Source: Microthyrium microscopicum
Taxonomy: Eukaryota > Ascomycota > Dothideomycetes > Microthyriales > Microthyriaceae
Assembly (NCBI GenBank): GCA_010405405.1
Contig: MU004231.1
Location: 1,047,736 to 1,111,735, forward strand
Direction of reading: 5' to 3'
DNA length: 64,000 nucleotides
The translations under genes and the position numbers were made by a program. Positions 18,041-63,080 of this stretch are shown piece by piece. Position 1 is the first letter of the stretch. Every line of letters starts with the position of its first letter. Below the pieces are notes generated by a model. That model was not told the DNA's origin and did not search any database. It saw only the letters and a program-made list of their open reading frames with translations.

Positions 18041-18125
18041 GGTCTAGAATTAGGCCCTCTGTTAAGACTGAGGCCCGATTTCAGTATTTACTATTACTAA
18101 GAGAGGGGGTCAAAATCTAGACCCT
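18041..18125. promoter_or_regulatory. Cluster of GGTCC dyad motifs between divergent relict genes
   Basis: Contains GGTCTAGAATTAGGCCC (18041-18057), AGGCCCGATTTCAG (about 18071-18084) and GGGTCAAAATCTAGACCC (18107-18124). The third is the standard motif with transitions in both half-sites. It lies between the minus-strand patatin relict and the plus-strand gene at 18307. Confidence 0.55.
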
Positions 18126-18306
18126 CTTATATTCCATTTACGCTTCCATAAAGAAATAGAGTTCACAATGTTTCGACATAACTAGAACTTACATACATAC
18201 TAGAATACAAAATCTGACAGCAATCCGAGATTGCGTTTCTATCGCAAGCAGAATGAGCCGAAAAAGCCGTTCATCTACCTCGTACTATTAAGATTATCCT
18301 CTACTA

Positions 18307-18795
18307 GTGCTAAAAGAGAAAGTAAAAGATGCTAAAAAGCACCAAGAAAGCGAACAACTTGTGTACTTACCGGCATGCTCTCGCTGCGGCAAAAGCAGAA
18401 GACTGCGTACACGCATGGACGTAGTTGAAGCTTTAGATCAAATCATTTGCCGGAGACCAGGGTGCGAAAGACTCAAAGTTCTTATTAAGGATATGTCTAA
18501 GCTAGAAAATCTTATCATAAACGTGAACCATTATCACTATGGCGAGTCTGTTCTAAAGGCAGTACCCTAGATTAAAGTCGCTAAGCTACCTAAAGGTAGC
18601 TCAGCCATGGGTCGGATCGAATTACCTAACAAGCTGGCGAAATACGAGTACTTTAGAACGGAAAGGCCGTATCGACTTCGTACTATCCTTAAAGAGCCAC
18701 CTCGGGTTAATCTTTCTACGAAGCCGACACTGACAGAAATGATGTATACGATACAGCTAAAGAAGCGAGGGGCATACACGAAGGGTGCAATCTAG
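18307..18795 (+). pseudogene. Hypothetical zinc-binding protein with one in-frame TAG
   Basis: The first part (18307-18570) contains CSRCGK and later CRRPGCE, four cysteines placed as in a small zinc ribbon. A TAG at 18568-18570 interrupts, and the same frame then runs on to 18795 with 75 further codons rich in Arg/Lys. A CAG to TAG transition explains the stop. No ATG is obvious at the 5' end; the frame opens after a TAA at about 18289, so a first exon may lie upstream. I do not recognise the family. Confidence 0.4.
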
Positions 18796-18927
18796 GTTAT
18801 TGTTAGTCTTCTACAATTACTAAGTAAAGAAATGAAAACTATTAAGAGATATTCGCAGGACATTCTTGCGTGTTTAAATACTTATATAATTACATGCATT
18901 AATGCTAGTCTTTTAGAATCTAGTAAG

Positions 18928-19423
18928 CTAAAATAACATAATATCGCAAATCAAGTTAAGATCAAGATTAGGTAGAGGAGGAAATACTAGTCCAGCTCTA
19001 GTTGAGCTCCGCAAATCCAGGTATCGGCTACCTACAATAAGGCTATTCTTCTCATCCCCTTCCATTTTATTATCTCTCTCTTTATAAGGCATCTCGATAT
19101 CGCTCCCCATCTTATCCAGTAACTCGTTCTTGTTCAAGTCGTCCGATAGCTGCACCAGTCAGCCAAGGTAACGGCAACGGCGATGATGTATTACTTACAA
19201 TGCTATCTATGTTCCTTAACCAGGGAATGTTACGCTTAGATCGAAGGGAATAAAACTCTTTTCTCGTTTGGTTGTTCCTGTCCACCTTCTCGAAAGCAAT
19301 GAAGAGCGCTAGCTCAACTCCAGGAAGCTCTGCGTACTCTCGGCATTTGCCTCTTAAAGGTCCGAATCGCCTTTTCTTCTTTTTGTTTAGTCTTTTACGA
19401 AGGCTGGGCTTTTGAGAAGGCAT
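18928..19423 (-). CDS. MADS-box-like small protein (two exons)
   Basis: Exon 1 is 19423-19199 and exon 2 is 19149-18928, joined by a phase-0 intron of 49 bp (GTAAGT donor, GTGCAG acceptor), giving 148 aa. Residues about 8-60 read KKKKRRFGPLRGKCREYAEL then PGVELALFIAF and FYSLRSKRNIPW. This resembles the SRF/MADS DNA-binding pattern (basic helix, 'LxGVEVAL' strand, then a W at the end), as seen in small fungal MADS-like proteins. The remainder is acidic. The start MPSQKP was chosen because the upstream in-frame residues look like leader sequence. A GGACC dyad lies 100 bp upstream. A nuclear DNA-binding role is inferred. Confidence 0.5.
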
Positions 19424-19522
19424 ATCTGTTTGGGCGGTTAGCCATGTCAATGACTGCTTCAGTGAACTTATACTCCAAAGGGCCTTCGATTTCTTTAACC
19501 ATCTGGAAGGAAGCACCGCCTC

Positions 19523-19547
19523 GAGGGACCATTTTCGGGACCCTCCC
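19523..19547. promoter_or_regulatory. GGACC dyad motif upstream of the MADS-like gene
   Basis: GGGACCATTTTCGGGACCC, with extra GA and TCCC on the edges. It lies 100 bp upstream of the minus-strand ATG at 19423 and 230 bp upstream of a possible plus-strand ORF at 19776. Confidence 0.6.
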
Positions 19548-19775
19548 TTCCGAATGATGAAACGCCGGGAGCTGTCTGACTGCAGAAATTATTAATACGC
19601 AGTCCCTTGCTCTTCCTCTTCAACACTTTCGGGTGCAAATCCAGGTCACAATAGAGACTCTAGAAGGAATTACAGTGTCTGTTGGAATTATGGTTGCTCT
19701 TTCGACTCTCTAGAAGATCATGTTATTCCTACCAGCTGAGTACGTATCTGCGGATAATCTTACTCTCTCGAGTTT

Positions 19776-20111
19776 ATGTTCGAACCCCCACGCTTCATAC
19801 CGGGCAGACAACAGGCAGCACGCGTCAATCCATTCGTTCAATTAACACTAGGAACCTTTCTTTCCATGACTCTTTTTGGTCAGAAGCGCGGAGAGTTCAG
19901 CCAATCTAAAAGCATCTCTTCGTCTAGCAAGACAGTTCTAGTCGGGTATGTGCCAGGCAGTTTGAGAGATCCATTCATCAAAAAAACTGACCATACCGCA
20001 AGGGTCGCGGACAGAAATGCAGGAGTCATTGAAAATGCTAGACCGGTACGTTTGAGTAGATTCTCAATACATATATCTTCGCCGCGTCAAGACCTACAAA
20101 GAGCGCTCTGA
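19776..20111 (+). CDS. Hypothetical 111-aa ORF
   Basis: An open frame beginning MFEPPRFIPG and ending DLQRAL, Ser/Arg-rich in the middle, in DNA of normal composition. No domain, signal peptide or membrane segment is visible. The only support beyond length is the divergent dyad motif about 230 bp upstream. It may be one exon of a longer gene or spurious. Confidence 0.22.
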   Translation: MFEPPRFIPGRQQAARVNPFVQLTLGTFLSMTLFGQKRGEFSQSKSISSSSKTVLVGYVPGSLRDPFIKKTDHTARVADRNAGVIENARPVRLSRFSIHISSPRQDLQRAL

Positions 20112-20119
20112 TACTCTTG

Positions 20120-20660: not shown

Positions 20661-21155
20661 CTACCTCTTCACGCTTCGCTCCCTGCCTGTTGCTCTCTGC
20701 TTCAGCCTGGTTTTGCGAATACCAGCCCTCTTCTTCTGAGCTGGCAACGCAATGCAACTTGCTAGCACTGTGGTGGCATCCGTCAGTTCAGCCAGACTTC
20801 GAGCTGATTCGTCATCGCCAAATTGACACTCTTGCTCGAGTAGCTTGAGTTGTTGTTTATACGCTTCATTTTCTCTCCGCACCTCAGCAAGCTCACTACG
20901 CAACATGGAGTTAATCATCAACACTTCTTGATTCCTTTCCTGCAGAATAAGATAAGTCCGTTGAGCATTGTCAGCCTGTTCTTGCAAGGCTTGCGAATTC
21001 TGGTCTACTCTCTGCTCGCAAGAGGCCCTCACAGAGAACATGGAGTGCCGAATTTCCCCTTCCGCTTCTTCAACTACAGCTCGCAATCCGTTTATGATTG
21101 CAGCCACAGGAGACAGGAAATGTGCTGCTGCTTGCCTAGAGATTTCCTATGCCAT
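20661..21155 (-). pseudogene. Small coiled-coil protein, probable TAG at codon 3
   Basis: From about 21107 the frame reads AAIINGLRAVVEEAEGEIRH and continues through long heptad-rich helices (QALQEQADNAQRTYLILQE, LRSELAEVRRENEAYKQQL) to a basic tail at 20661. It is predicted to be a helical coiled coil of about 145-165 aa. The only nearby in-frame ATG (21155) is followed by GCA then TAG, which a CAG to TAG change would explain; otherwise a start in an upstream exon is needed. It belongs with the other small coiled-coil genes at 21.7-24.2 and 28.8 kb. A dyad motif lies 200 bp upstream. Confidence 0.45.
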
Positions 21156-21355
21156 ATTAGTAGTGCTCTTCCCTGCGCTGCGCTTGAAGCCGTACATTGT
21201 GCATGTCTTCCTCAACAGGCGAGTTGGCTATGGTCACAGTTTTTGCAGTCGGAGCTGCCGTGAAAGGAAAAGATTCGTAACTAAGTTACACTTCTTTCTT
21301 ACCAGAGGGATCCATAATAAGTTCAAAACGAATGGATGCTATAGTCAGTTGGAAA

Positions 21356-21372
21356 GTCCCAATTTTGGCCCC
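21356..21372. promoter_or_regulatory. Dyad motif, degenerate
   Basis: GTCCCAATTTTGGCCCC, about 200 bp upstream of the minus-strand coiled-coil gene start at 21155. Confidence 0.5.
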
Positions 21373-22477: not shown

Positions 22478-22514
22478 TACCCCGATTTTGGTCTCAAGGT
22501 CCTGATTGTGGGCC
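22478..22514. promoter_or_regulatory. Two adjacent dyad motifs
   Basis: ACCCCGATTTTGGTC (about 22479-22493) and GGTCCTGATTGTGGGCC (22498-22514), the second with the full GGTCC-N7-GGGCC layout. They lie about 260-290 bp upstream of the minus-strand start at 22220. Confidence 0.55.
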
Positions 22515-23330: not shown

Positions 23331-23361
23331 CTATTACACACTACTTCATACTATAAAGGTT

Positions 23362-23418
23362 ACCTGATTCTGGACCCTCGAGCCACTCTGCAAGCATTTT
23401 GTCCCGTTTTTAGGGCCC
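23362..23418. promoter_or_regulatory. Two dyad motifs
   Basis: CCTGATTCTGGACCC (about 23363-23377) and GTCCCGTTTTTAGGGCCC (23401-23418), upstream of the minus-strand coiled-coil relict. Confidence 0.5.
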
Positions 23419-27426: not shown

Positions 27427-27447
27427 CAGGGTTCCCAGAACCAGGCC
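27427..27447. promoter_or_regulatory. Weak dyad-like site upstream of the cupredoxin gene
   Basis: GGGTTCCCAGAACCAGGCCCC has the half-site spacing but a poor core. It lies about 140 bp upstream of the ATG at 27587. Listed only because the position matches other genes here. Confidence 0.25.
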
Positions 27448-27586
27448 CCACCTGACCCATGCAAACCTCACAGCATTCTATGCAGAACAAAAGGCGTTAC
27501 TTTCCTCTCCACTTTGCTGTCGTTGGCATCAACAAACTTGCAAAAATCTCAAGTCACACGTTTTTTCACCTCTTCACCTCTTCACC

Positions 27587-28616
27587 ATGACTCATTCTTG
27601 TCACCTGTTTTTACTTCTTCTTCTTCAGGCTACAATGCTTGTCAACGCAGCCCAGATCCATACGATAAGAGTCGGATTTGCGGGAGGTCATGTTTTTGAT
27701 CCGACAACGACAACTGCGGATGTTGGAGACCTAGTTATCTTTGAGTTCTTCCCAACCAACCATTCGGTAGTTCGCGGCGAATATACGGAATCCAAGGCCT
27801 GCGGGAGCAGTCAATGCAATCCTTGCGTACCCTACGAGTTGATCCATCCCGGGCAAACTAGGTTCCATTCTGAAAATTTTCTCACGCAAATAGTCTTAAC
27901 TAACGGAGATGTATATACCCTATAGTCCCGCTCACAGGAGATAACTAACGCCGACATAGGTCCCAACTTTCAATATCACTATTGGAGACAACTTTCCAAT
28001 ATGGTTCTATTATACAGCACTCGATTCATGCCATCCGAACGGAATGGTTAGTATGATCAATCCTGCCGAAGGCCAGTCCATCGACACACAGAAGTCTGCA
28101 GCAATCAACGCAGATTATCAGCTTATTCCAGGCCAGTCTTGGCCGGCAGAAGGCTCTAGTCCAAGCTCGCAGCCAAACTCAACATCCCCCCCGTCTAAGA
28201 ATTCGAAGAGCCAAAAGGTATCAGGTAGTGCCATTGCCGGTATAGTCATCGGCATCTTACTGGCAACAGTGCTCACCGCTGCCTTAGTCTTCTTTGTGAG
28301 GCGAACCAGACAGAGAAATGCCCCAAAGAACCTAGAGGATTCCCTATCTTTGACTAAACGCGATGCTGAAGAACAAACGGTCCCCGTCCCAATGGAATTT
28401 GAGCCGGCCACGCCCCGCACCCAGAATGATCTCGTCAGCCCAATCTCTCCTCCGCCTCAGCGCAAGAAATCTATACTACACTTTTACAAATACCCGTTCG
28501 CGGAAAAGCCACTAGTGGCTCCAAAAGGCCATCCTGCATTGAGGTCAGGAGGAGGCCGGAACACCACAAGTGAGTTCGAGGGGGAAGAGGAATATATCGG
28601 CAGAAGCTCAAGATGA
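27587..28616 (+). CDS. Secreted cupredoxin-domain protein with single C-terminal transmembrane segment
   Basis: Exon 1 is 27587-27910 and exon 2 is 27960-28616, with a 49-bp phase-0 intron (GTATAT...CATAG), giving 326 aa. A Leu-rich signal peptide (MTHSCHLFLLLLLQ) precedes a cupredoxin-like domain: VGFAGGHVFDP, GDLVIFEFFPTNHSVVRGEY, CNPCVPYELIHPGQ, then NVPTFNIT-type sequence and WFYYTALDSCHPNGMVSMIN. The conserved His, Cys and Met positions of the blue-copper fold are visible. A Ser/Pro linker is followed by a hydrophobic helix (SAIAGIVIGILLATVLTAAL) and a basic cytoplasmic tail. These extracellular cupredoxin-like proteins are common in ascomycetes; the role is unproven. There are no in-frame stops and composition is normal. 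Confidence 0.82.
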
Positions 28617-29066: not shown

Positions 29067-29146
29067 GTCAAATGTTTTGATAAGTTTGATTTGAAAGACG
29101 AAGCAGTTCTATCCCAGCTTTTACAGTGTTGACTGTAAGCCGGTGG

Positions 29147-29190
29147 TGCCCGATTTTGGGCCCTCCCTGTGAGACCGATTCCAGGCCCTC
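29147..29190. promoter_or_regulatory. Two dyad motifs in a divergent promoter
   Basis: GTGCCCGATTTTGGGCCCTC (29147-29166) and GAGACCGATTCCAGGCCCTC (29171-29190). They are centred between the minus-strand ATG at 29066 and the plus-strand ATG at 29259. Confidence 0.65.
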
Positions 29191-29258: not shown

Positions 29259-30017
29259 ATGATGTTTGTCACAATGTTTCCTCTTTTCTTCGCCCTCGGC
29301 TTAAGCCTGCTACTCGAGCACGTAGCTTGTGCTGATATGCCGTCCAAAGCAACTCTCGCTACTTTTGGACCATCCATCGAACAGATTTCCAAGACCAACA
29401 GCAGCGAGACGAGTTTTCAACCATCTTCAACTGTATCAATAAATGAATCGAATATCAGAACGACGACCAATGCTATGAGTGTCAGCCCAGCTTCCGCGCC
29501 GACCGTGTTTGGAACGGTAATGGGACAGAGTTCGGTGTCGGGTAATAGACTGACTGTTCCAACGAGCCCGACAGCGCTGGCTTGCCCAGGCCCGACCCAG
29601 ATTATAAACAGTTCCAGTACCATCGAAGCCATCGTACAAATTCAGGTTAACAATTTTGTCAGAACAGTAACTGTATTCCTCACGCAGACTGGCTCTTCCG
29701 CAATGCCGTTCGGTATGGAGTCTGTTGCTACATCTATTGCAACAACTACTACGGAAGAGGATTGTTCGCATAGCACATCCGCAAGGAGAGTCCCAGCCAT
29801 CCCAAGTCAGAGCAATGGTACATCGAGCGGCTTCGCCCCTCGATCAAACTGGACTGCTAGCCATAACATAACCAATGGCTCTTCCGCCAATTCGCCCCCA
29901 CCTCAAACGGCATTCACAGTCCTTACGGCGGCTGACAGTAAATCACATAGTCACACCAACGTACCTGAAATGCTTCCGTTTTTCGCGTTCAATGTTGCTA
30001 TTCTTCTCCTCCTCTAG
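29259..30017 (+). CDS. Ser/Thr-rich secreted protein, probably GPI-anchored
   Basis: A signal peptide MMFVTMFPLFFALGLSLLLE ends near HVACA, followed by about 200 residues rich in Ser, Thr and Asn with several N-glycosylation sequons (NSS, NGTSS, NWTAS, NITNGS). The protein closes with a short hydrophobic tail (MLPFFAFNVAILLLL), the layout of a GPI-attachment signal. The upstream in-frame Met at 29169 would bury the signal peptide, so 29259 (or 29262) is preferred. 252 aa, no introns or stops. Cell-wall or surface role inferred; no catalytic domain seen. Confidence 0.7.
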   Translation: MMFVTMFPLFFALGLSLLLEHVACADMPSKATLATFGPSIEQISKTNSSETSFQPSSTVSINESNIRTTTNAMSVSPASAPTVFGTVMGQSSVSGNRLTVPTSPTALACPGPTQIINSSSTIEAIVQIQVNNFVRTVTVFLTQTGSSAMPFGMESVATSIATTTTEEDCSHSTSARRVPAIPSQSNGTSSGFAPRSNWTASHNITNGSSANSPPPQTAFTVLTAADSKSHSHTNVPEMLPFFAFNVAILLLL

Positions 30018-30249: not shown

Positions 30250-31050
30250 AATGCCATTACCTAGCCGGATCTTGTGCCATCCGCCGCTTGCTTATAAGAG
30301 GCTTTACGCAAGGCTGCCAACAACAATATCTCCCTCTTTATTAATGATTAATCCTGCACCGTCAGCGGAACGGCTTGCATCTAATATCTTACGGTAGATC
30401 ACAGGAAGAGGCTAACAAAGGCTAATGGAGCAATTGGCCAATCGGAAGATAGAATGGAAAATGTGGAGGTGGCGCTATTTAAGGTTTGGCCCCTGCGTTT
30501 TGAGGCTGTGCGTCGTATCTGCAGCGCGATCAAGGGCGCCCTAGCCCCACGAGGATCAGGAAGGAAGGCACTAAATGAGGCTGTGAACCAAACAAACTGA
30601 GATCCAAATTTGGAGATATTCACTTCCCATCCCCTAGCAAAACTTGAAACGTATAGTTCTCGGTGACTTGTTGCCCGGATTGGCAACATGCATTTGATTA
30701 GATAGCCTTGCATAGCTGAACACTCGGACGAGCGCGGCTCTGCAGAGTTAGCAAAGAACTGTAGATGTACTAGTATTTCATATCGACTAGGGTGGCATAT
30801 TCTTACCGTAAGTTGCCTTACACACCATACACAGCTAGACGGCTATATTTATAACTAAGGCAAGACTGGATTATCTATAAAGTTGCAAGGTAAGTTAGGC
30901 GATACTCTATATAAGCAAAACAAACTACAAACTTTATAAAGAAAAACTATCTCTTTTAACTCAAAAACCTTTCTAAACACTTTACTATAGAAATTATACC
31001 TCTGCTACAATTACCTTAAGAAGAGAAAATGCACAATACTTGCGTAATAA
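30250..31050. other. Intergenic, becoming AT-rich; no supported gene
   Basis: Up to about 30740 composition is normal but I find no recognisable coding sequence; the antisense frame at 30399-30713 shows no domain. From 30840 the sequence becomes AT-rich. An ATG at about 31029 (MHNTCVITPNVAKIYNVF) opens the reading frame that enters the tandem repeat. Confidence 0.4.
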
Positions 31051-34000
31051 CGCCTAATGTCGCTAAGATATATAATGTCTTTCTTAATAGTAATAATAGT
31101 TTAACTACTAATAAGGAAGCTATAATTAAAGTTTAGAAGGCTATACCTAACGTTTTAAAGGTTATAGAAGAGAATTGCTTATTCCTTTATTATTACATAA
31201 GGTATATACTTAAATATAGAATTAAGTAATTTATTAATATTAGTTCTAGTTATATTACTAAGGATAATATCTATGAACTTACTTAAGTAATTAAACTAGT
31301 AGTAAAGATTATATATATAGACTAAAACTTAATAGTAGTTAAGAAAGAAAATAAGCTTCTTACTATAAATAGAGTAGCTATTATTATCTATACTAATATT
31401 TATAAGCCTAATAATATTTTTAAGTATTTTAATCTTAGTAGTTTAATTAACTTTATAGAGCCTATTAGAATCTTAATAATATATATTGCCTATTTCTTAA
31501 TAAATATAGAGCTTATATATATTATATTATTAATTTAATTTATAATATATAATAATAGTTATATTATATTAATATATAATATACTTAATAGTTATCTAAT
31601 AAAGAAAGAAAATATTATTAACATTTAGGAAATCTATAATAAGACCTCTATTTTACTTATTTTTTATAACTATTAAGAAGTCTTATAAATTTTTTAAAGC
31701 TTATATCTTATAGAACTTAGAGTTATCTATTTTTATAACTAGTATATTAAATTAAATTTACTAATACTAGCTATAGTAGAATAACTTTATAATAAACTAG
31801 TAAAAAAGACCTTAATATTAGTAGTTCTTAAAGTTAGTCTATAGATATATATAAACTTTATATAGTTCTAAAAATATTTTAATACTATTATGCTTACTTC
31901 TACTTTACTTTTCTTTATTATTTAGTATATTATTATATATCTAGCTTAGTTATTCTTAGATAATAGAGCTATTTTATTTTAGTAACTAAAAGATATAGTA
32001 CTAAAATAGAATTAAGAGCTAGTTTTAAGTTTAAGAGTTTTATTATTTCTTTAAGAATAAAATACTTTATATTAACTATTATAGTAGGTAGAGTTAATAC
32101 GCTCTAGATAAATACTTAGTAACTTTTAATAAATTAGATATAGGTTATACTTATTTAATATATTTTAGATATTTAATAAAGAAGATTTATTTTCTTTTAT
32201 TATATAGTAACTATAAAAAGATTTTTATTTAGTTAGATTATCTATATGTAATTAAGCTTTTTTTTTTTTTAGAACTAATAAGTATTTTAGACTTTTATTT
32301 AGAGTAAGAAAAAGAAAAAGAATAATCTTATTATAAGTAGCTAATTTAAGTATTTAATTAAATATTTAAGTTATTACTATACTTTAAACTTAACTTTTTT
32401 TATATCTTTATATATTTTTATTATATTATAGCTAAGTTATTAAGTATATATAGCTAAATATAAGAGAATTAATAGCTATATATAAACTATAATCTTAGTT
32501 ATAATTATAGCTTATTTACTTAGGTACTTCTATATTTTATTTTATATAAAGAAATATTTATAACTAATATAGCTAGAGTTTTAGTATAAACCTTAAATTA
32601 ATTATTATAGCTATTTATAAATCTCTTAATATTTATAATTACTAAGTAGAGAAAATAATTAATAATACTTAAGATAAAGAATTTTAATATCTAAATATAT
32701 ATTAAAATTACTACTTATTAACTAAAGTAACTCTAAGGTTAAACTTCCTACTTATTTACTATTTATATCTTTTTTTTCTTTAGAGTCTATTTTTAGTTCT
32801 CTCTTTTTTTAGCTTTTTTTATATTAGTAAAATCTAAAATAAATCTAAATTACTTTACTATTAGTAACTTTAAGTTCTATCTATATTCTTATAACTTTAT
32901 TAGTAACTTTATTTAGTATTATAAAGATAAAGTAAAGTTAAGCTTAAATATTTAATAACCTACGCTAATAAAAAACTTTTTAAATATAGTATATATAAAT
33001 AGAGTAAAGTAAAAAGCTTAATTCTTAGTAGAAATTATTTAATAAGTTTTACTTATATAACTTAGTTTTTATTTTAGTTATACTTAAGTTTTATTTTATA
33101 TTTTCTTTAACTAACTCTATATCTATAAAGAAGTAAATATAAAGATAAGTTTTAATTCTCTTTATATTTATTTACTAATAGTTTAATTTTATTTTTTTTT
33201 ATATATAATAATAATATATAACTATATAAATATATATCTAAATAATATATTAATTAAAAAGAATTAATATAGTTCTAATTAAGTTAAACTATAAAATATC
33301 TACTCTTTACTTTTTTAAGATATTAATAAAAAAGTTTATATTTATAATCTAAATATTAATTTACTTTTAGAGTAGGCTAGGTAAGTTAGAAACTCTTAGA
33401 ATCTTTATAAATTAATTAGTAATTATAATAGCTTCTATAAAGAAGTAAAGAATAATTATTTTTTATTCTTACTTAGGTACTTATATATTAAAACTAGAAA
33501 TATTTCTAAAAGTAAAGATATTAAGAATAAAGGAATAAATTAGAAATACTTAGTATAAGTTAGAAATATATAATACTTAGTATATACTAAAAATAGTAAA
33601 TATATAATATTTAAAATATATTAATTTATTTTATAATTTAAAGAAGAAAAAGAAGAATAAATTAGATTAAGACTTATAAGTACTATTACTTATATTTTTA
33701 CTTTATTTAACTAAAAGACCTAAGTATAGTTTATAGACTTTAATAAATAATACTATTATATTTTTTAGTATATAAATAAAAAAGAAAAGCTTAAGAATAG
33801 TATAGTATTTAGTATCTAAGATATTAATAAAGCTTATAATAAACTTATATTCTATATTTTAGTAAAATATAAAAGCTTTAATTAGATTTATTACTTTTAG
33901 AATAAAAAATTAGAGTACTTAATATAGTTATTTAAGAATAAAGAAATATATATAGTAAGTATAAAGAAAGTAGAGTATACTTTATAGTAATAGCTAAAAG

Positions 34001-41190: not shown

Positions 41191-41239
41191 TTTTGAGGTG
41201 CTGGTGTTGGTGCCAGCAGCAGGCGTCAGGAGCGAGTTC

Positions 41240-41591: not shown

Positions 41592-41663
41592 GGCGGGACC
41601 TTATTTCGGACCCCTCTCCGAAAAAGCGGTTTTAGGCGCGAGTAGTTGGTTTTGGTCCCCTCT
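41592..41663. promoter_or_regulatory. Two dyad motifs
   Basis: GGGACCTTATTTCGGACCCC (about 41595-41614) and TTGGTTTTGGTCCCCTC (about 41646-41662). They are 400-470 bp upstream of the minus-strand start at 41190, with the minisatellite in between. Confidence 0.55.
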
Positions 41664-43170: not shown

Positions 43171-43250
43171 GGGAGGTCCGGATTCAGACCCAGGGGTCCA
43201 AAATCAGGCCCTCTTAACAATGACCACGCCATGCCTGATTTTGGACCCCG
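43171..43250. promoter_or_regulatory. Three dyad motifs in a divergent promoter
   Basis: GGGAGGTCCGGATTCAGACC (43171-43190), GGGGTCCAAAATCAGGCCC (43193-43211) and, inverted relative to the second, GCCTGATTTTGGACCCC (43233-43249). They sit between the membrane-protein ATG at 43077 (minus) and the helicase ATG at 43356 (plus). Confidence 0.7.
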
Positions 43251-43355
43251 CCGCTGCTGAGTGCTCTAGAGGCTTTTTGAAAGTACCATACGGTAGGTTA
43301 TAGGTTTGAGCCGTTCATACTTTTTCAAGTTACTCTGCTAGATCACAAGATCAAA

Positions 43356-47450: not shown

Positions 47451-47453
47451 TTT

Positions 47454-48470: not shown

Positions 48471-48475
48471 TCACT

Positions 48476-49308: not shown

Positions 49309-49504
49309 CCAGATGCGCGCATCATGTTATTTGAGCTTTGGGAGGCGGAAGATGTTGTCTAGTTACTTATGGGAGTTTGGCATCTAAATGGCAGTTGATT
49401 TGAACAGTACTATGCTTCACCGGGCTCGGCTGCCTCAGGCCATCCCCTCATTCTCTCCTTGCCCAACTTCAGCCGCTCAGGGCCAACACCAACACAAAAT
49501 TTCA

Positions 49505-52500
49505 TCAGCTGAGTTTGAGGAGTTTTCTTGCACTTTGTGGCACCTCAGAATCGTTTTCGTTACTGCCGTTTCCGTTGCTGCCTTTGCCATTGCTATCGTT
49601 GCCATTGTTAAGTTCCCACTTTGGAATCAAGTATAGTGTATTCTCGCCATCTGCAATGGCATCCTCAAAACACGTCCCTACCTTTACCATTCGCTCATCT
49701 TTGGTATATGTGTATATAGGTTCATGCTTCCTCATATATTTTACCACAAATCGCTCAAGCTCACTCGTGTCGGAAGGGTCTACGGAAAGAGTTTGTAGTA
49801 ATCTCCATTTTCCGTGATCCCTAATTTTGAAATGTATATCAACCGGCCGTTGTGTTGGTGTTTTCAGATTCGACGTGGAGGTTGAGGTGTCTCCTGCTGC
49901 TACAGCCTGAAGCTCCTGGGGAATGGCCTGCTCACCTATGTCTTCTTGGATCTGCGGCACCGAAGCTGAACTGCGACTTTCTGCCGTTTGTTGAGTCACC
50001 GATTCCGCGAGCTTGCTGAAATCAATCCTCGTCGCTCGCTTTCGGTTCTTTTGAATCGCGCTAGGAGAACTTGTAGTCTGCTTCTTGTCACTTTTGTCTC
50101 TTGCAGGGTTCGGTTGCTAATTGCCGCGCTCCTCTGCTTTTTTCTTCCTCTTTTGCTCCATCCTTGTGAGCCTCTCCTGTTCGACTTTCTGCCTTTCTTG
50201 TTCAAGTCGCAATAGCTCGAGCCTTTCGTCCTCCTCCTGCCTCTCTTGTTCAAGCCGTACTTGCTCGAGCCTGTCCTGCTCGGCCTGCCTCTCTTGTTCA
50301 AGCCGTACTTGCTCGAGCCTGTCCTGCTCNNNNNNNNNNNNNNNNNNNNNNNNNNNNNNNNNNNNNNNNNNNNNNNNNNNNNNNNNNNNNNNNNNNNNNN
50401 NNNNNNNNNNNNNNNNNNNNNNNNNNNNNNNNNNNNNNNNNNNNNNNNNNNNNNNNNNNNNNNNNNNNNNNNNNNNNNNNNNNNNNNNNNNNNNNNNNNN
50501 NNNNCTCTCTTGTTCAAGCCGTACTTGCTCGAGCCTGTCCTGCTCGGCCTGCCTCTCTTGTTCAAGCCGCAATTGCTCAAGCCTGTCCTGCTCCTTCTGC
50601 TTCTCTTGTTCAAGCCTTACTTGCTCGAGCCTCTCTTCTTCGGCTTTCTGCCTCTCTTGTTCAAGCCGCACTTGCTCAAGCCTCACTTGCTCAAGCCTTT
50701 GCCTTTCTTGCTCTTCACGCCTTTTCTGTTCGAGTCTCCCCTGTTCCTCCCTTGCTAATCGTGCTCTCCATTGCTCCTGCTCTTGTCTATTCTGTTCCAC
50801 CAGTCTTCCCTGCTCTTCCTCAATAAGTTTCTCAAGCTTCTCGCGTAAGGCGCGATTAGGCTTTCCAAAGAAAGCAAAATACACAGATCGTCGGATAAAG
50901 AAAGAGGTTACTTCATCACTTTAATCCTCGCGAATGCTGTATAACTTCTCTAGAAACAGGGACGATTTGTCAGCTCTATATATCCCGGTCTGTAGGATTC
51001 CTTTTCTTTTCAGTGTCTTCAGGTAGCCTTCGAAATCCATCATAGTTTCGTCCTCTCTTTTTTCGGCCGTAGAGAAGAATCTGACCATCTATTCCACGAA
51101 GTTTGCAAAAGCGGCATCATCATATTTATATCGGGTTGGGTCCCGAGCCTTAAGAAGAGCTTTACGAGCAATCTCCTCATCAAGGAAACGCTAAATCTAG
51201 TAACGAATCTCCTCAGACTCAAATCCTAGACGGTAGGCAAGAGAGGCGAACTCGCACCCAATGCGTTCGTTTGGTTAACTCCTCAGTTTTGCTACCAGAC
51301 TGTCATCCTCTTTCTCAAGGAGCATTTCGAGGTAATCACGCATAGCGCTAATCCATATCTGCAAGACTCCCAGTTCAAGTCGATCTAACCTGTTTCCTGG
51401 TATTGATATAAAAGTTGATCCCAATCGCTGAATGATGCACCAGTCAGTCTCTTGATTGCCATCTAAGAAGATCCTTTCCAGGGCAGATGGCACAGTTTCA
51501 TCCGGCCATAGTTCCACCAGGGCTTTCACACAATCGGCTAGACCTTTCAAATAGTAAACATCTACGAAAAAGCTTAAGAGAGACAGAATTAGACGGTCGG
51601 TCGTCTCAGATAGTATATCTGTCCATATTGCTTCGCGTTCTCGCTCGGTAAACGCGCCGAATATTTTACCGTCTCGCAATTAACCGTATAGAGATAGGCG
51701 ATCTGACCTGCAAGCGCCAGGGGCTTTAAGCTCAAGAGCTTTCACGTCAGCCCGACTCACCTTTAGCATCGCTTGCCTATCTCCTCGAAAGATTTTCGTC
51801 CAGAATTCCCTAATGTTGTCATCCAGATAGGATAGCATCAACTAAAAGGTCAGTACATCCACGTAGTCATCCGGAAGAAGTCTTACCTCATGGCATTTCA
51901 TCCCGAAAACCTTGTGCGTTAAGCCCAAGCTCATTCCTCCCCCAAGCCCAGGGACGTCCAGCTGAATGTCGAACGCTGCCCTGAAGTCAGGATTTCGGAT
52001 AATCTGCTTCATATTATCGGATTTATGGCTAGATATTCCATGCAAAAGAGCCCACCATCGGCTTTCAAAGTACGGGTTCCCTCCACCTCCATATCCTTGG
52101 TATTCTCGGATTTTGCGGTATATCTCGCCATCATCCGGTTTTTTTTCACATGAATATTCTTCAATCAGGGTTGTCTTGAGATCGTCACTAAGATCTGTAT
52201 ATACTTGGTGAGATATGTACGCAGGTTCGGAGATGGGAGCATACCTGAATCATACAAGTCGACCGTCCATCGTGTGGTTCCACGAGAAGCTTTAGCCGCA
52301 AGAGCTCGATGCTGGCCACGGAGGCAACTCAGAAGGAATCCAGCTGTGAATTCAAGCTGCAGGTGTCCATCACGCGCTTCAAGCAGTGCTTCCGATGAGA
52401 TATTCGAACGCTCCAGTGCGGCATCTAGCTGGTCCTGTCGTATCACAGCAGGAATGTGGTTGAAAATATCCCAATCACGACAACCTTTCTGCTTTTTGAA

Positions 52501-52677
52501 CAGTTTCTCGAGCCTTTCGGTATTCTTTTCGTCTTCGTCTCTTATCTTTTTGAATGGAAAGTCCAGGACCGCAATATCAACGCTTGCTGTGCCTCTGAAC
52601 TTGGTACTGAGCTCTTCGGCAAGCCTTCGCTCCTGTTCAACAAATCGTCGCCGTGACATCTGGACATCAACGTTCAA
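49505..52677 (-). pseudogene. DUF3723 family protein, RIP-damaged
   Basis: From the 52677 start: SVDIAVLDFPFKKIR, RLEKLFKKQKGCRDWD, NHIPAVIRQDQLDAAL, CLRGQHRALAAKA and RWTVDLYDS, then a 50-bp intron, EEYSCEKKPDDGEIYRKIRE and GGGNPYFESRWWALL, a second intron, FWTKIFRGDRQAMLKV and SVYFAFFGKPN. A long Glu/Gln/Arg repeat region follows, then a C-terminal domain with VDIHFKIRDHGKWR and IADGENTLYLIP. This order is typical of DUF3723 proteins, a family repeatedly found in fungal Starship elements; its function is unknown. About six in-frame TAA/TAG codons between 50.1 and 51.7 kb all fit CAA, CAG or TGG changes. 175 Ns fall in the repeat region. A GGTCC palindrome lies about 75 bp upstream. Confidence 0.78.
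50170..50720. repeat. 45-bp coding minisatellite with assembly gap (Ns 50330-50504)
   Basis: Tandem units of 45 bp encode QDRLEQVRLEQERQA on the minus strand inside the DUF3723 gene. The 175-N gap lies within identical units, so the true copy number is unknown. Plus-strand frames across it (LFKPYLLEPVLL, SCSSRTCSSL) are shadows. Confidence 0.85.
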
Positions 52678-52750
52678 AAGTACAATGACTCCGAGCTACT
52701 CCTTCCATAAGCACGATATAAAGCTCACTCTTCCTACCCAACGACCAGCC

Positions 52751-52782
52751 CTTAGGGGGGTCCAAAACCGGGACCCCCTAAG
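52751..52782. promoter_or_regulatory. Best palindromic copy of the dyad motif, divergent promoter
   Basis: The core GGTCC-AAAACCG-GGACC is flanked by CTTAGGGGG (52751-52759) and CCCCCTAAG (52774-52782), making a near-perfect 32-bp inverted repeat. It lies 75 bp from the DUF3723 start (minus) and 100 bp from the pseudokinase start (plus). Confidence 0.75.
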
Positions 52783-52882
52783 ATGGCTTTTTAGGATCGC
52801 TCGAGCCCAGTTCTCTAAGCCTCTAGCTAGCTATTCTATATTCTCTACCGGTCACGTAGCACCGCCAAATATCAATTTCGCG

Positions 52883-54114
52883 ATGGATTCTCTCTCTGAA
52901 AAACGGCGAACACAGATAGACTTCAGAAGACTAAGACCCGGTCCACGCCCCCAAAACAGCGTGCCCCTCGGGAACATTAAAGAGCTTAGAGATGAAGAGG
53001 AATATCATCGTATTAACGATTCAAGGCTCAAAGAAAGTCCCGTAAACATTTTACACCGGAAGATAACTCAAGAGATTGGAGTAGCTCGTACCACAAACTC
53101 GAAAGAAGTTAAGCTTCCCGAAGTTACCCCATCCGGCGTCAGTGATCATGAGTATTTGAAACCAGCATTTGACTCCCCGTGGCAGAAGTACGAAAAGTTA
53201 CATGACATTCGACTTGGGGCGGATAACCTCTACGTCACAGTGGCCGATCGCAAAGATACACACTGGAAGTCCAAGACGCGAAATGATCCTTTCCTAACCC
53301 TGGCCTTGGTGAGGAGTTTCGTAGGATCGAACTTTGAAAATAAGATTCGGGAGTTTCAGCAGATACAGCACGTGGGCATCGTCTCGGTCCTTGAGATTTT
53401 TAGGTCTCAGAGCTCTGACGAAACTCATCACGTCGTTTTCGAATACATGGCGTATTCCCTCCACTACGTTGCCGGTAATCCTCTCCTTGATGAGAAACGG
53501 CTGGCTGCTATAGTCGCACAGGTAAGATGTCCCTAGCGAGTAGCTATCCTCGAAGTAACTGACAGCAACAGATCATCCATGTGTTCAAATACCTGTCATC
53601 ATTACAGGCATTGGATCATGGTTCGTTGACTTGCGCTAAGCACGGGCTGTTGACCTGCTCAAGCATCCTCATTCATCCATGCGGAGATGTCAAAATTCGT
53701 CACCCACTCCTATCAAATCATTTGTCTCCCGAAGAACGCGCCATTAGCAAGGAATGTTGTGAATTGCGACCTCATAGCAACATAGAATCTCGATACATCA
53801 GAGCATTAGGCATGACTATTATGGAGTTGATGCAAGGCTACCCCAGAGAGGACGGAGCTGTTGGTGTCGAAGATCTATATCGTTGGCCGTCTGACTGCAA
53901 CGCTGTCAGTTTCCTCTCTACAACAGTTACCGCCACTTCATTGCTTGAATTGACAAAGGTAAGTCGATTCTACCAATCAAGCCCCAGTTTGTACCAGTCT
54001 AATGTTCCGTAGCATCCGCTGTTGCGCCTGCCTTGGCGGAAGGAAATGCTCCAAGGGCTGGTGGCTTTCGTGTCCGTAGGGACCCGCATCGGCACCAGGT
54101 ATCCATCTAAATAA
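52883..54114 (+). CDS. Protein kinase-like protein, probable pseudokinase (three exons)
   Basis: Exons 52883-53521, 53572-53958 and 54013-54114 (introns 50 and 54 bp, all phase 0) give 375 aa. The kinase fold is visible as FLTLALVRSF, IQHVGIVSVLEIF, HHVVFEYMAYSLHYVAGNPL (hinge and helix D), LSSLQALDHGSLTCAKHG (where HxDLxxxN is expected), SILIHPCGDVKIR, LGMTIMELMQGY and HPLLRLPW at the end. The catalytic Asp of HRD and the DFG Asp are absent, as in a group of fungal kinase-like proteins with the GxxGVxDLxRW signature seen here. Likely non-catalytic. No in-frame stops. Shares its divergent promoter with the DUF3723 gene. Confidence 0.75.
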
Positions 54115-54220: not shown

Positions 54221-54279
54221 GGTGTCCAAAACCGGGCCCCTTTACTTCACGGCACTCATGGTCCCAAATCTGGACCCCC
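54221..54279. promoter_or_regulatory. Two dyad motifs upstream of the ferric reductase
   Basis: GGTGTCCAAAACCGGGCCCC (54221-54240) and GGTCCCAAATCTGGACCCCC (54260-54279), 85-145 bp upstream of the ATG at 54366. Confidence 0.7.
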
Positions 54280-54365: not shown

Positions 54366-56156
54366 ATGGATGTTACACAGGCGTATGCTATAGCCGCTGG
54401 CTGTGGCCTTTTCTGCCTTCTGCTCTTCAGAACCCGTCATTTGATGAAGTCGCTCTTGAAAACCGTAGAACTCAGAACTTCACAATTTCTCATCTACCCG
54501 CAGCTGGTTCGTCGGCACCGATACCTTGGTCCTTGGAGTTGGGCTGGATTGTTGGTACCGGCCGGTTATATCGCCGTAAACATGTTTTGCGTTGGCTTCA
54601 AAGCCTCATCTCTGCGCGTGGCCAGCTTACGAGCTGCGGATCTGGCCTTGATTAACTTGATACCAGCCTTCGCCAGTCTTCACTTGAACTTTCCAGCGGA
54701 TGTACTTGGGCTGACACTGAAAACATATCGTAGATTCCATCGTGTACTTGGAGCCATGTCATGTTGCCTGCTAGCCTTTCACGTGTTTACCAGCTTAGCC
54801 AGCAGAACACCCTTCCCCTTGGACCAAATGGAGAATCTATGGGGGCTCATTGTAAGCATTTCATCTCCCATTACTCATCAAAATCTAACCTATGACAGGG
54901 AGCTTCATCTGTCGGTCTCCTCTTTCTCCTTTCTACACCTTTTCTTCGCAGATTATTCTACGAAGTTTACCTCCGTATCCATCAGTTACTAGCTGTCCTT
55001 CTCATGTATTCGATTTGGCAGCACTTGCGGCTGAAACTATGGCCTGAACAGTTTCATCCCCCTCAACTGTACGTCTATATTTCAGTATGGACATTTCTCG
55101 TCCTGTCACTTCTCCAATTTGGGGCAATAATCTACAGAAATTGGCCAGTACGCTCGGCATATTCCCGAGCTTATATCTCTCACGTCGATGATACGGTCAA
55201 GATACGCTTGAAACTATCTCGACATTTGAGAGTTGAACCAGGGCAATATATCTCTTTGTGGATGCCGACGATGAGCTTTTGGTCTTTTCTGCAAAGTCAT
55301 CCGTTTACGGTAACTTCGTGGGCAGAAGGAAAGCAGGACTCGTTAGATCTCCTCATAGAACCCCGCGGAGGCTTCACACAAAGACTTCTTCTCAATAGCA
55401 AAGCGGCTCGAAAAGCTGGGGGCAGACTTCAACCACGTCTAGCTCTGTTCACCGGCCCGTATGGGACTAGTGCGTCCGTTAATCGATACGAGACGGTCGT
55501 CATGGTAGCTAGTGGTTTTGGCATAGCTGGGCAGCTACCTTACCTCAAGAAACTGATATACGGGTACAACACTTGCACAACTAGAACTCGACGAGTCCAT
55601 CTGGTGTGGCAATTGGAAACGATTGGTAAGCCTCCAAACTCATCCATTGCGAAAACCTAACTCACATTGGTAGACATTGGAATTGCAGCACAATCCTACC
55701 TGAACGACGCTTTAACAGACGATCTGTTAGATGACGGCAATGTAAGCAACACAGATTATATCGATAACATACGTACTGACGAGAGCTAGATCCTTGGCAT
55801 CTCGATATATATCAAGATTGGGAAACTAGACAGTGCTTCCTGGGGACGCCGTGCTGTGTGGTATAATGGATCTGCAGATCTTCGCGCGATCTTACAAGAT
55901 GAGATGTCAGGGAAGTACATCAATAGGATGCAAGGTGAGGAACGAGGATCAATGCTAGTCATAGGTAAGTGTGCAACCAACTCAATTGACAAACTACTAA
56001 TGCCGTATAGCTTCGGCAACGGATGAAATGAGAGACAATCTACGGGAAATAGTCCGTGGTCATTTGAAAGACAAAGTCCGCCTACTGGAACTAGAATACC
56101 AGCCGGTGACATCGGAAAGCGTAGCATCAAAGGCCACGGAAAAGTCATGGCGGTGA
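54366..56156 (+). CDS. Ferric reductase / NADPH oxidase-like transmembrane oxidoreductase (five exons)
   Basis: Exons 54366-54851, 54899-55625, 55674-55741, 55790-55964 and 56011-56156 give 533 aa with every intron in phase. Two H-x13-H pairs (H125/H139 and H190/H204) are the bis-haem ligands of the FRE/NOX family. The FAD-binding HPFTVTSW is at about 296 and the nucleotide-binding GPYG at about 348, followed by VVMVASGFGIAGQLPYLKKL for NADPH. The enzyme moves electrons from NADPH across the membrane to extracellular ferric chelates. It is shorter than most FREs (600-700 aa). No damage seen. FRE genes are known Starship companions, which fits the DUF3723 gene two genes away. Confidence 0.85.
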
Positions 56157-56378: not shown

Positions 56379-56482
56379 GGGTCCAGTTTCGGACCACTCG
56401 GGATAAACGTGGTTATGGTGGCGAAGCCAGGCTTGACAGTTCGCGGTCTTGGCATTCAAAAGGGGCCGAAACTGGGACCACC
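56379..56482. promoter_or_regulatory. Two dyad motifs with no assigned downstream gene
   Basis: GGGTCCAGTTTCGGACCA (56379-56396) and GGGGCCGAAACTGGGACC (about 56462-56479). The next plus-strand sequence is the minisatellite at 56.7 kb, whose open frames may belong to an unrecognised gene. Confidence 0.6.
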
Positions 56483-56689
56483 TCCACGATATAAAAAAAT
56501 CCGTGTTCTTTCAATAATGCGGTCAAATCAAATCAAAGCCTTGAAATGCATAGAACAACACATAAGCTAGCCAGATTGCAATAATGCATAAGGAAACTAC
56601 TAGAGGAAGTAAACCAACCGAATGAGTAAACATAGAGATGTGAACGAGATGTGAACGAGTCGACGGAGCTTCGCGAGTTGAAGCTGAGT

Positions 56690-56965
56690 CGGGCTCTCCA
56701 CGGAGCTCCTCTCTCCTCGAAGAGTCTCTCCACAGAGATATTCTCTCCTTGAAGATCATCTCTCCTCGGCTGTTCTCTCCATGGAGAGAGTCTCTCCTTG
56801 GAGAATCTCTCCGCAGAGCTCTTCTCTCCACGGAGAGGTCTCTCCACGGAGAGGATCTCTCCACGAAGACATTCCCTCCTCGGAGACGTCTGTCCACGGA
56901 GAGAGTCTCTCCACGAAGAATCTCTCTCCATGAAGAATCTCTCCACGGACCTCATCCCTCCATGG
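56690..56965. repeat. Minisatellite with self-complementary units
   Basis: About 15 imperfect units of roughly 15-20 bp built on TCTCTCCACGGAGAG, where each unit is itself an inverted repeat (CTCTCC / GGAGAG). Frames stay open on both strands (MENLSAELFSPRRGLSTERI on plus; SVERPLRGEKSSAE on minus), so coding cannot be excluded. Confidence 0.7.
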
Positions 56966-56969
56966 CGAT

Positions 56970-58149: not shown

Positions 58150-58178
58150 CAGGGGTCCATTTCTGGGACCCCCTCTGG
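58150..58178. promoter_or_regulatory. Palindromic dyad motif
   Basis: GGGGTCC (58152-58158), spacer ATTTCTG, GGACCCCC, with CA and TCTGG edges. About 155-180 bp upstream of the minus-strand ATG at 57998. Confidence 0.7.
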
Positions 58179-61499: not shown

Positions 61500-61670
61500 A
61501 TGTTGTGGGTAGATGCACTGTAATGGCGTTCGAGGCGGCGGTTTGTACACCTTCATAACCCTGCCTCAGAGGGATATCCATAGCCTTCTTCTACAGTACA
61601 GTACTGTACCGGACTGTATGAATCATACGCTTAGATTTCCTGCGAGAAAACACTAGCATTGCGCGAATGC
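61500..61670. other. Short intergenic stretch
   Basis: 3' flank of the sirtuin-RING gene. Contains the self-complementary TACAGTACAGTACTGTA at about 61595-61611. Confidence 0.4.
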
Positions 61671-61673
61671 TCG

Positions 61674-61782
61674 AAATCAGGCACCCCAGGCTGATTACGG
61701 GCCCATTCGTGCTACAATGAAGTTGATCGTCGACATTCAGCATGGGGCCCGAGACTGGACCCCGGGTTCAAAACTGGGACAC
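61674..61782. promoter_or_regulatory. Three to four dyad motifs
   Basis: A degenerate pair in 61674-61703 (AAATCAGGCACC; GGCTGATTACGGGCCC), then GGGGCCCGAGACTGGACCCC (61744-61763) and GGGTTCAAAACTGGGACAC (61764-61782). They lie 120-225 bp upstream of the ATG at 61902. Confidence 0.65.
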
Positions 61783-61901
61783 TTGGTGTCAGTATACACG
61801 GCACAGCAACGCTATAAATCTGTAAATTCCGCTTCAAAAGACTGCACAAACTCACTACTGTATCAGAAGCAAAGCAGAAGTTCAAGTTATCTTATACCAT
61901 A

Positions 61902-62432
61902 ATGGCAGGAACGAAACGCTCCCGTGCTGATTCGGAAACGGAGGAGGAGAAGTCAAACGCCAAGCGCCATAATGGCGAAGCTCCTGAGCACGAGGCAGAA
62001 AAGGAGAAACCTAAGGAACAACCATCTCAGGACCACAGCAAGCAAGCCAAAAAAGCGGAAGACGGCTCGGAGTCGAAGCAAAAGCGCGCGCGGGAGCCAG
62101 AGAGCACTGACGAACCGGAGGCCAAACGCAGAGCCCCTTCCAGCCAGGGCGAAACTGCATATGATCATGCTCACAGAGTCAAACTTCGCACCCAAGTGAG
62201 GGCTTGTAAAACTCTCGCTGACTGTGGAGGTATCCTCAACAAGATTCCTGCCAGTAATATTATTGCTCTTGCCTTTGCTTTAAACGACGCGAAAGAGAAC
62301 CATCGCCGCGAGTTGTTCGGCATTCTTCCCAAAAGTCTTTCTTCTCAGATTGTTGACATTCTGGCGAATGCCATCATAGACAGAAAGCGGTACGATCCAG
62401 AGTCACTTTATCCTATTAACTTATCGCTTTGA
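61902..62432 (+). CDS. Hypothetical nuclear-type protein, 176 aa
   Basis: Single exon starting MAGTKRSRADSETEEEKSNA. The N-terminal half is highly charged, with basic runs (KRSR, KQKRAR, EAKRR) that look like nuclear localisation signals and an acidic, disordered background. The C-terminal half is a compact helical region (TLADCGGILNKIPASNII and FGILPKSLSSQIVDILANAI). No domain recognised. No introns or stops; normal composition. The dense dyad cluster upstream supports it as a real transcription unit. Confidence 0.6.
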   Translation: MAGTKRSRADSETEEEKSNAKRHNGEAPEHEAEKEKPKEQPSQDHSKQAKKAEDGSESKQKRAREPESTDEPEAKRRAPSSQGETAYDHAHRVKLRTQVRACKTLADCGGILNKIPASNIIALAFALNDAKENHRRELFGILPKSLSSQIVDILANAIIDRKRYDPESLYPINLSL

Positions 62433-62434
62433 AC

Positions 62435-62890
62435 AGGATCTTGCAAGCAATACCATTTTCAGGATATGATTCTAGAAAGCTGCAGAAAGTACTCATTCAC
62501 AAAGGATGCCTGGCGAAACAGCTGGATGGCGATGAGTCGCCATTTTTCGCAATGTGCCCATGTTTCTGAATGGCAAGCAAGCTAGTTGCGGCGTTCGTTT
62601 TGATATCGATTGATTCCTAAATAGCTCAGTTTAAGTTAGTCAATGAAAAATCTTCTGCCACAATCCCCTCATGAATATCAGGACGTCAATACCTTAAATG
62701 AAGTTCAGATATTCTGCATATAACATCCCAAATTGCGAGAACTGGCTTCAGGCCTCTTGCATTACCCCGTAACGTCACCTTTTGTCTCCCCGTGATTGAT
62801 CACTTGAGCATGCACATTACCCTGCGTAAGGCGGTGGTGATGATTTACCCATTGACATCGAGATTTACCAAAGAATCATCAACTGAGAGT
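62435..62890. other. Intergenic, nothing recognised
   Basis: No coding frame of note on either strand; the next recognisable signal is the dyad cluster beginning at 62893. Confidence 0.4.
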
Positions 62891-62892
62891 CG

Positions 62893-63080
62893 TGCCTGAT
62901 TTTGGTCCCTTTCAGTTTCACTCTCTTCGTATGGATGAGCGCCTCCACAAGCCCAGTTCTGGTCCCCCTTCGAGGTCCGAAACTGGACCCCGTCGAACGG
63001 CGACAACTTGCTCTGATAGCGACCACTTTCAGTCTCGATGTGTTTCTCATGATTTAGAGTTCAGTCTTGGGCCCCCCTCA
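62893..63080. promoter_or_regulatory. Four dyad or half-dyad motifs
   Basis: TGCCTGATTTTGGTCCC (62893-62909), GCCCAGTTCTGGTCCCCC (about 62951-62968), GAGGTCCGAAACTGGACCCC (62972-62991) and CAGTCTTGGGCCCCCC (about 63063-63078). All lie 85-275 bp upstream of the ATG at 63165. Confidence 0.7.

Follow-up and report, generated by a model that had tools for sequence, protein, structure and literature searches.

Microthyrium microscopicum carries, in a 64,000-nucleotide stretch of contig MU004231.1 (hereafter the window), a GC-rich interrupted dyad that recurs between genes of very different predicted function, which raises the question of what such a sequence does and why these genes should share it. 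A preliminary description had read it as a GGTCC/GGACC dyad around an AT-rich core of 6-7 bp, present in at least sixteen intergenic intervals and marking most promoters of the region.

A self-trained variable-gap matrix gave RGGGTCC-RAAAYC-(N)-GGMCCCY as the consensus of the 17-base dyad. The dyad is real, but the middle base of each arm is free, so that the arms are GGNCC, and strict GGTCC/GGACC pairs at gaps 4-12 number only five. The core is A-rich and asymmetric (RAAAYC), the spacer ranges over 6-8 bp (mostly 7), and the matrix base following CC is A at 0.49 and G at 0.32. A dyad lies within 8 bp of all eleven positions listed previously; ten are exact GGNCC-N6/7-GGNCC, the one listed at 29147 (29146 here) has one arm mismatch, and the copy listed at 52751 starts at 52759. 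The recurrence stands as well, although the count becomes 21 sites in 14 clusters, five of which hold two or three copies.

The recurrence of the dyad is far above chance. Between 18 and 64 kb, exact GGNCC pairs occur nine times at gap 7 and three times at gap 6 (0.19 expected for each) and once at gap 8 (0.23 expected), with none at gaps 0-5 and 9-13. Pairs at gap 20 are also in excess (3 vs 0.16), which is unexplained or an effect of neighbouring copies. When 256 half-sites were compared in two orientations and at 41 gaps, GGnCC at gap 7 shared the top score with TGnTC at gap 10, the latter presumably a tandem repeat. In an open trinucleotide-dyad scan restricted to non-coding DNA, whose mask contained three hand-corrected 5' ends that exposed three sites, the motif piece GGGnCCA ranked first (24 vs 4.6); in coding and non-coding DNA together the motif pieces CCG-N5-GGA and GGGnCCA came third and fifth, and CTC-N16-CCA was the top entry. 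An earlier matrix with a loose cut-off was diluted to 97 sites and was replaced by the stricter one, which converged on the 21 sites against a shuffle mean of 0.55 and a maximum of 3 (60 shuffles). With the matrix refitted for each shuffle, 22 sites compared with 4-6 (15 shuffles).

The sites below were located by the matrix unless stated otherwise. Those at 18107..18123 (+; 23.5 bits) and 23360..23376 (-) form the two of the 14 clusters that have no nearby gene model scoring above 5. An exact GGNCC-N7-GGNCC at 19526..19542 (-) was found by arm pair and matrix, and another at 22498..22514 (-), found by arm pair, has a poor core and falls outside the 21 matrix sites. Further copies lie upstream of a coiled-coil gene model at 20661-21204 (-) (dyad 21355..21371, -), of a model at 27635-28616 (+) (27431..27448, +, gap 8) and of a model at 29259-30017 (+) (29146..29162, -, one arm mismatch). 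The dyad at 41596..41612 (-) is upstream of a minus-strand C2H2-bearing gene, whose start may be about 41191 rather than 41404, in which case the distance is about 410 bp. The copy at 43195..43211 (+) is 153 bp upstream of a ZNFX1/AAA helicase model (+) and 477 bp from a claudin-like start (-), and the helicase promoter has a second copy of opposite orientation at 43231..43247 (-).

The best dyad (31.5 bits; 52759..52775, +) occupies the divergent promoter of a DUF3723 gene and a kinase-like gene. The former is a four-exon ab initio model (51275..52659, -) that matches PF12520 as assembled (E 6e-81); the latter (52883..54114, +) has a start hand-chosen inside the ab initio model 52685-54114 and a Pkinase match below the Pfam cut-off (E 0.004). 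Two dyads, 54223..54239 (+) and 54260..54276 (+), lie upstream of a ferric reductase gene (54366..56156, +), modelled from two pieces, the open frame 54366-54992 with its ATG and the 3' part of the ab initio model 54828-56156, in which PF08022 (E 2e-15) and PF08030 are above the Pfam cut-off and PF01794 is below it. The cluster of 56380..56395 (-, gap 6; arm pair and matrix) and 56463..56479 (+; TATA-like run at 56490) has only a doubtful ORF; the start 56638 was picked after the motif had been seen. The dyad at 58154..58170 (-) is upstream of a nucleoside 2-deoxyribosyltransferase-like gene (-) with a hand-chosen start at 57983. Upstream of a model at 61902-62432 (+) lies 61746..61761 (+, gap 6), with weaker dyads at 61668..61684 (+) and 61765..61781 (+; TATA-like at 61813). 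The dyad at 62892..62908 (-) is upstream of a model starting at 63165 (+), and 62974..62989 (+, gap 6; arm pair and matrix) and a weaker dyad at 63058..63073 (-; TATA-like at 63088) follow. A third GGTCC half-site stands at 62961, beside the 62974 copy.

As would be expected of a shared promoter element, the sites are enriched upstream of starts and avoid exons. Relative to untouched starts of the ab initio models made in this analysis, 14 of the 21 sites lie no more than 300 bp upstream, a zone that makes up 13.9% of the region (p=4e-8), which bears out the upstream placement reported before. Predicted exons cover 44% of the region and contain two of the 21 sites (p=7e-4). An earlier promoter test, for which starts had been adjusted with the motif known, placed 9 of 12 exact sites upstream (p=2e-6). 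When only the 13 models scoring above 15 are considered, 9/21 sites (p=1e-4) and 5/14 clusters (p=0.01) are upstream, and five of the 13 starts have a dyad. Of the 18 ab initio starts, 10 have a dyad within 300 bp upstream, which is what the earlier 'most promoters' amounts to. Genes as different as the DUF3723, ferric reductase, helicase and kinase-like genes do share the dyad, and the SET, sirtuin and 48476 genes, named earlier as lacking it, indeed have no site within 300 bp upstream with up to one arm mismatch; the same holds for the starts at 47450, 51088, 42726 (claudin-like) and 45. Orientation is weakly biased among the 14 sites assigned by hand (11/14, p=0.057), the other seven of the 21 being left out.

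The accessory character previously proposed for the locus is supported by its predicted DUF3723 and ferric reductase genes and by RIP-like islands that lie among the motif-bearing genes. DUF3723 is described as a characteristic feature of Starships in the excerpted text of PMC11623301, and ferric reductases (FRE) are named among the genes prevalent in Starships in that of PMC12134995, whose own elements are there said to lack both DUF3723 and FRE. Both of these cargo features are present here by Pfam match. Among the 180 stop-to-stop frames with a length of at least 70 aa, the 62 that were scanned gave no match at E 0.1 to a captain tyrosine recombinase (DUF3435), and a captain may be outside the window or decayed. 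The locus might be Starship-type cargo with a portable promoter dyad, read by a regulator of the element or of the accessory genome, by which cargo of unrelated origin would be switched together wherever the element lands; we regard this extended reading as rather unlikely.

Short inverted arms can look like terminal repeats, and with RIP-like repeat islands at the locus, the dyads could be remnants, ends or target sites of small mobile elements. However, BLASTN of the 200-bp flanks of the 21 sites returned no shared sequence well beyond the motif: matches between distant sites extend to at most 30 bp, nearly all of them at the motif, which largely refutes this reading and confirms that the flanks are unrelated, as had been noted. 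One local match of 45 bp at 80% joins the flank of 41596 to 41293-41337. Moreover, the arms are only 6-8 bp apart, and the copies sit preferentially in promoters and seldom in predicted exons, so that a mobile origin is hardly credible. The best copies could also pair their arms around a loop of 6-7 bases, as would a hairpin formed in the RNA of 5' leaders and acting post-transcriptionally. Arm pairing is not kept, though, since the middle bases are complementary in only 6/21 sites; the GG/CC pairs, which hardly vary, are complementary in 14 to 20 of 21. That the middle base is free agrees with contacts by a protein and not with a hairpin. In addition, four of the 14 promoters with the motif have a TATA-like box downstream of their nearest dyad, and therefore the dyad there is probably not transcribed; such boxes are not commoner with a dyad (5/14, one upstream of the dyad) than without (3/5). 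No Rfam family reached its gathering score within the window, and a hairpin function is very improbable. Given the short flank matches and the few complementary middle bases, a transposon end and a hairpin are both unlikely.

It is also conceivable that the dyad works as a general promoter element in this fungus, bound by a widely used factor at ordinary genes throughout the genome, and looks special only when the window is read alone. The unrelated genes that it serves and its ordinary promoter distances would fit. On the other hand, 8/18 ab initio starts are without a dyad, some of them through wrong 5' ends, and it would be unusual for every second promoter to carry so specific a motif. None of the 21 sites lies in 1-18 kb, about 8 kb of which is not RIP-like, against about three clusters expected by rough arithmetic, so that this argument is weak. 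We consider a general element unlikely. A silencing or boundary signal, in which a chromatin factor recruited by the dyad would hold accessory genes silent or separate them from the RIP-like islands, agrees with the interspersion of those islands and motif-bearing genes, and in a wheat pathogen a Starship is described as lying under H3K27me3 and H3K9me2 marks (excerpted text of PMC11231334). However, the sites concentrate upstream of starts and some promoters of the locus have none, and such a signal appears quite improbable.

The reading that we favour is that the dyad is the putative target of a single DNA-binding protein that is sequence-specific and probably dimeric, and that this site probably serves as a proximal promoter element of an accessory-type gene set. 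One subunit would contact each GGNCC arm, the arms being about one helical turn apart, and the A-rich spacer of 6-8 bp (RAAAYC) would determine spacing and direction. A factor bound upstream of the transcription start would then raise or lower transcription, and at the divergent promoter it would affect both genes. It is a fair inference that the sites share a single regulator. The flexibility of the spacer over 6-8 bp is unusual for a rigid dimer and speaks against the dimer model.

The CArG box of MADS factors is CC(A/T)6GG, and the inner part of the dyad, CC-N6/7-GG with an A-rich core, resembles it. The dyad differs in that its gap is mostly 7, its core contains G/C and its outer GG/CC are conserved too, so that identity with the CArG box was rejected. 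Similar to the CGG-Nx-CCG sites of Zn2Cys6 factors, such as the Gal4 site CGGN11CCG (PMC5140021), the dyad is a promoter sequence whose two short, GC-rich arms stand at a fixed distance around a spacer that is less constrained. Unlike them, it has GGNCC arms and a spacer with an A-rich, asymmetric core that is conserved; conserved CGG/CCG triplets are absent from the matrix, and a Zn2Cys6 site was likewise set aside. According to the excerpted text of the same paper, motifs enriched on Fusarium oxysporum accessory chromosomes (TRCCG of aTf1/cTf1 and the Sge1/Wor1 site) are bound by factors encoded on accessory DNA, which is a precedent for the scheme proposed here, although those motifs are other, shorter sequences and were established by binding arrays and expression data.

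A motif scan of IMG/VR viral contigs gave seven loci. In four of them (L001, L002, L003 and L007), arrays of GGTCCGAAAWCCGGACC have nearly the same 17-mer as the dyad; they differ in being tight arrays on contigs of 70-72% GC, are perhaps iteron-like, and were put aside as coincidence. The gene downstream of the L007 array has an IstB match, and the array region had no match in phage records. The remaining three (L004-L006), examined for motif copies and GC (L005 also for ORFs), have one copy each. Searches of the viral contigs with the DUF3723 exon and the ferric reductase exon gave three and two pattern matches, none confirmed, and of genome contigs with a helicase fragment 189, none confirmed; one match of the DUF3723 exon to a Phenylobacterium MAG in the genome contigs (43% over 37 residues) was taken as chance. 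A fungal relative emerged from none of these four protein searches. Among the open-licence literature matches listed, no paper on the dyad, or on a promoter motif common to Starship cargo, was found.

If the dyad were genome-wide, it would be a general promoter element of the lineage, not found described, less surprising and useful for annotation. To our knowledge, gene regulation in giant transposons and in the accessory regions of fungi is largely an open field. A searchable 17-bp code common to DUF3723, ferric reductase, helicase and orphan genes would provide a direct handle on the gene set and on its factor.

The GGNCC arms of the dyad were found to pair at a preferred distance, as exact pairs at 18-64 kb occurred nine times at gap 7 and three times at gap 6 (0.19 expected at each), and once at gap 8 (0.23 expected). 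No exact pair was present at gaps 0-5 or 9-13 in this region, and none at gaps 6-8 in 1-18 kb. Gaps 14, 15 and 19 each gave a single pair, and gap 20 gave three (0.16 expected), perhaps due to neighbouring copies. Because the motif had been picked in the preliminary description, a choice-free repeat was run over all 256 half-sites NNnNN in both orientations at gaps 0-40, in which GGnCC at gap 7 (nine vs 0.52 expected) shared the largest excess with TGnTC at gap 10, which was taken to be a tandem repeat. In an open dyad scan of the non-coding DNA, GGGnCCA ranked first (24 vs 4.6 expected), and the top 25 included the motif pieces GGG-N12-ACC, GGG-N4-AAA, GGACCC and CCG-N5-GGA as well as low-complexity CTC/AGA dyads; with coding DNA included, motif pieces ranked third and fifth.

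A variable-gap matrix, seeded with six dyads and then retrained over the whole window, converged on 21 sites above the cut-off of 15 bits, compared with a mean of 0.55 and a maximum of 3 in 60 shuffles. When the fit itself was repeated on 15 shuffles, each yielded 4-6 sites, compared with 22 for the actual sequence. The matrix has the consensus RGGGTCC-RAAAYC-(N)-GGMCCCY, with an asymmetric core in which the A-run adjoins the left arm. Thus, of the form GGTCC-N6/7-GGACC claimed earlier, the paired arms at gap 6 or 7 were borne out, and the fixed middle T/A was not, the middle base being loose. The sites form 14 clusters, five of which hold two or three copies. About 9.5 kb between two dense groups (43250-52750), containing the helicase body and the genes 46644, 48476 and 49505, is free of matrix sites.

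Regarding placement, starts were taken from the untouched automatic gene models (18 beyond 18 kb, score over 5). The 300-bp stretches preceding the starts make up 13.9% of the region and hold 14 of the 21 sites (p=4e-8), or 9 of the 14 clusters (p=2e-5), while predicted exons cover 44% and yet hold two sites. Placement upstream of starts agrees with the claim of a dyad at most promoters, "most" amounting to 10 of 18 starts. The five clusters outside the 300-bp test are 18107, 23360, 54223/54260, 56380/56463 and 58154, and the automatic 5' ends of the ferric reductase and deoxyribosyltransferase genes are probably wrong. Restricting the test to the 13 models with scores above 15 weakens the result (9/21 sites, p=1e-4; 5/14 clusters, p=0.01; 5/13 starts), since another four models with the motif lie in the 5-15 score range. 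The best site, 52759, is located in a 223-bp divergent promoter, 108 bp from the start of the DUF3723 gene and 116 bp from that of a kinase-like gene. The latter, initially called a pseudokinase, does match Pkinase (E 0.004), below the Pfam cut-off. A TATA-like box occurs within 350 bp in 5 of 14 motif-bearing promoters; in four (41404, 56638, 61902 and 63165), the nearest dyad lies upstream of the box. Of five promoters lacking the motif, three have one. Even with one arm mismatch allowed, the SET, SIR2, 47450, 48476, 51088, claudin-like and 45 starts have no site in the preceding 300 bp, as had been noted for the SET/JmjC-like, sirtuin and 48476 genes. The A-rich strand is the sense strand in 11 of 14 sites with an assignable gene (p=0.057).

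The dyad is most likely a putative site of a dimeric DNA-binding protein, serving as a proximal promoter element. Such a protein would touch both GGNCC arms, whose centres lie 11-13 bp apart, the A-rich spacer would set direction, and the bound dyad would act on nearby genes; we infer both the binding and a single protein for all sites. The action may go in either direction, activating or silencing. Copies could also be parts of a longer repeat, but when the 200-bp flanks of the 21 sites were compared by BLASTN, no match between distant sites exceeded 30 bp and nearly all fell on the motif, the few off-motif matches spanning 12 to 26 bp (E 0.43). This rejects the longer-repeat reading and upholds the earlier remark that the flanks are unrelated. 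A hairpin RNA is counted against by the middle arm bases, complementary at only 6 of 21 sites, and by Rfam, in which no family attained its gathering score in the window. A standard Zn2Cys6 site was rejected because CGG triplets are not conserved in the matrix, nor does the matrix fit a CArG box.

Scans of viral and genome contigs for relatives gave no match that was demonstrably fungal. Almost the same 17-mer forms tight GGTCCGAAAWCCGGACC-type arrays in four GC-rich IMG/VR viral contigs (70-72% GC; L001:3750-3868, L002:14639-14751, L003:2861-2979 and L007:5888-6006). The L007 array is upstream of an IstB-matching gene; it also lies downstream of a cytosine methylase gene, at a distance of some 1.8 kb. 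These arrays are possibly replication iterons, and the likeness was treated as convergence with an iteron-like repeat.

The non-coding DNA also holds an excess of a second short palindrome, TAC(A/T)GTA (TACnGTA, 13 vs 2.7; ACTGTA, 23 vs 6.4), with copies at 22000, 24437, 24757, 26274, 26666, 42715, 56367, 61592-61608 and 61856; three of these, at 61592-61608, overlap one another and directly precede the dyads of gene 61902. A CTCTCC/GGAGAG low-complexity tract with inverted repeats (56640-56950) follows the 56380/56463 dyads and a TATA-like run, and may be a repetitive orphan ORF or else a non-coding transcript.

The window DNA reads as fungal, given its intron-bearing gene models, gene islands (~44-51% GC) and AT-rich islands. 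The AT-rich islands, at about 8-18 kb, 24-26 kb and 31-40 kb, have RIP-like dinucleotide signatures (minimum GC 15%; minimum (CA+TG)/(AC+GT) 0.01). Strong islands at 8000-18000 and 31000-40000 separate the gene islands, and CpA/TpG is almost absent in 32-40 kb. Domains above the Pfam cut-off were SET, AAA_11/AAA_12 helicase, SIR2, DUF3723 (E 6e-81, assembled gene model), ferric reductase FAD- and NAD-binding, and nucleoside 2-deoxyribosyltransferase-like; ZNFX1, claudin-like and one C2H2 finger fell below it. The finger, the sole transcription-factor-like domain among the frames scanned, belongs to a minus-strand gene (40196-41404) that may start at about 41191 instead, bears a dyad upstream of itself, and has a C-terminal part that is JmjC-like by eye, without Pfam support. 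Another minus-strand model (49505-51088) carries a long EQDRLEQVRLEQERQ-type repeat running across the assembly gap 50330-50504.

The locus is Starship-like. DUF3723 (PMC11623301) and the ferric reductase FRE (PMC12134995) are named as associated with Starships, the giant transposons of fungi; the elements described in the latter paper are reported to carry neither. A section title elsewhere reports that a massive mobile element, a Starship, occupies a Sir2 locus of a wheat pathogen (PMC11231334). The captain, a DUF3435 tyrosine recombinase, was not seen in the 62 of 180 frames of the window that were scanned. No description of the motif appeared among the matches listed from open-licence PMC papers. 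As a putative cis-regulatory site, the dyad belongs to a known kind of element, and what makes it interesting is that an accessory-type gene set has it in common. The genes bearing the motif could be cargo with a common code; alternatively, it could be an element in general use in this species.
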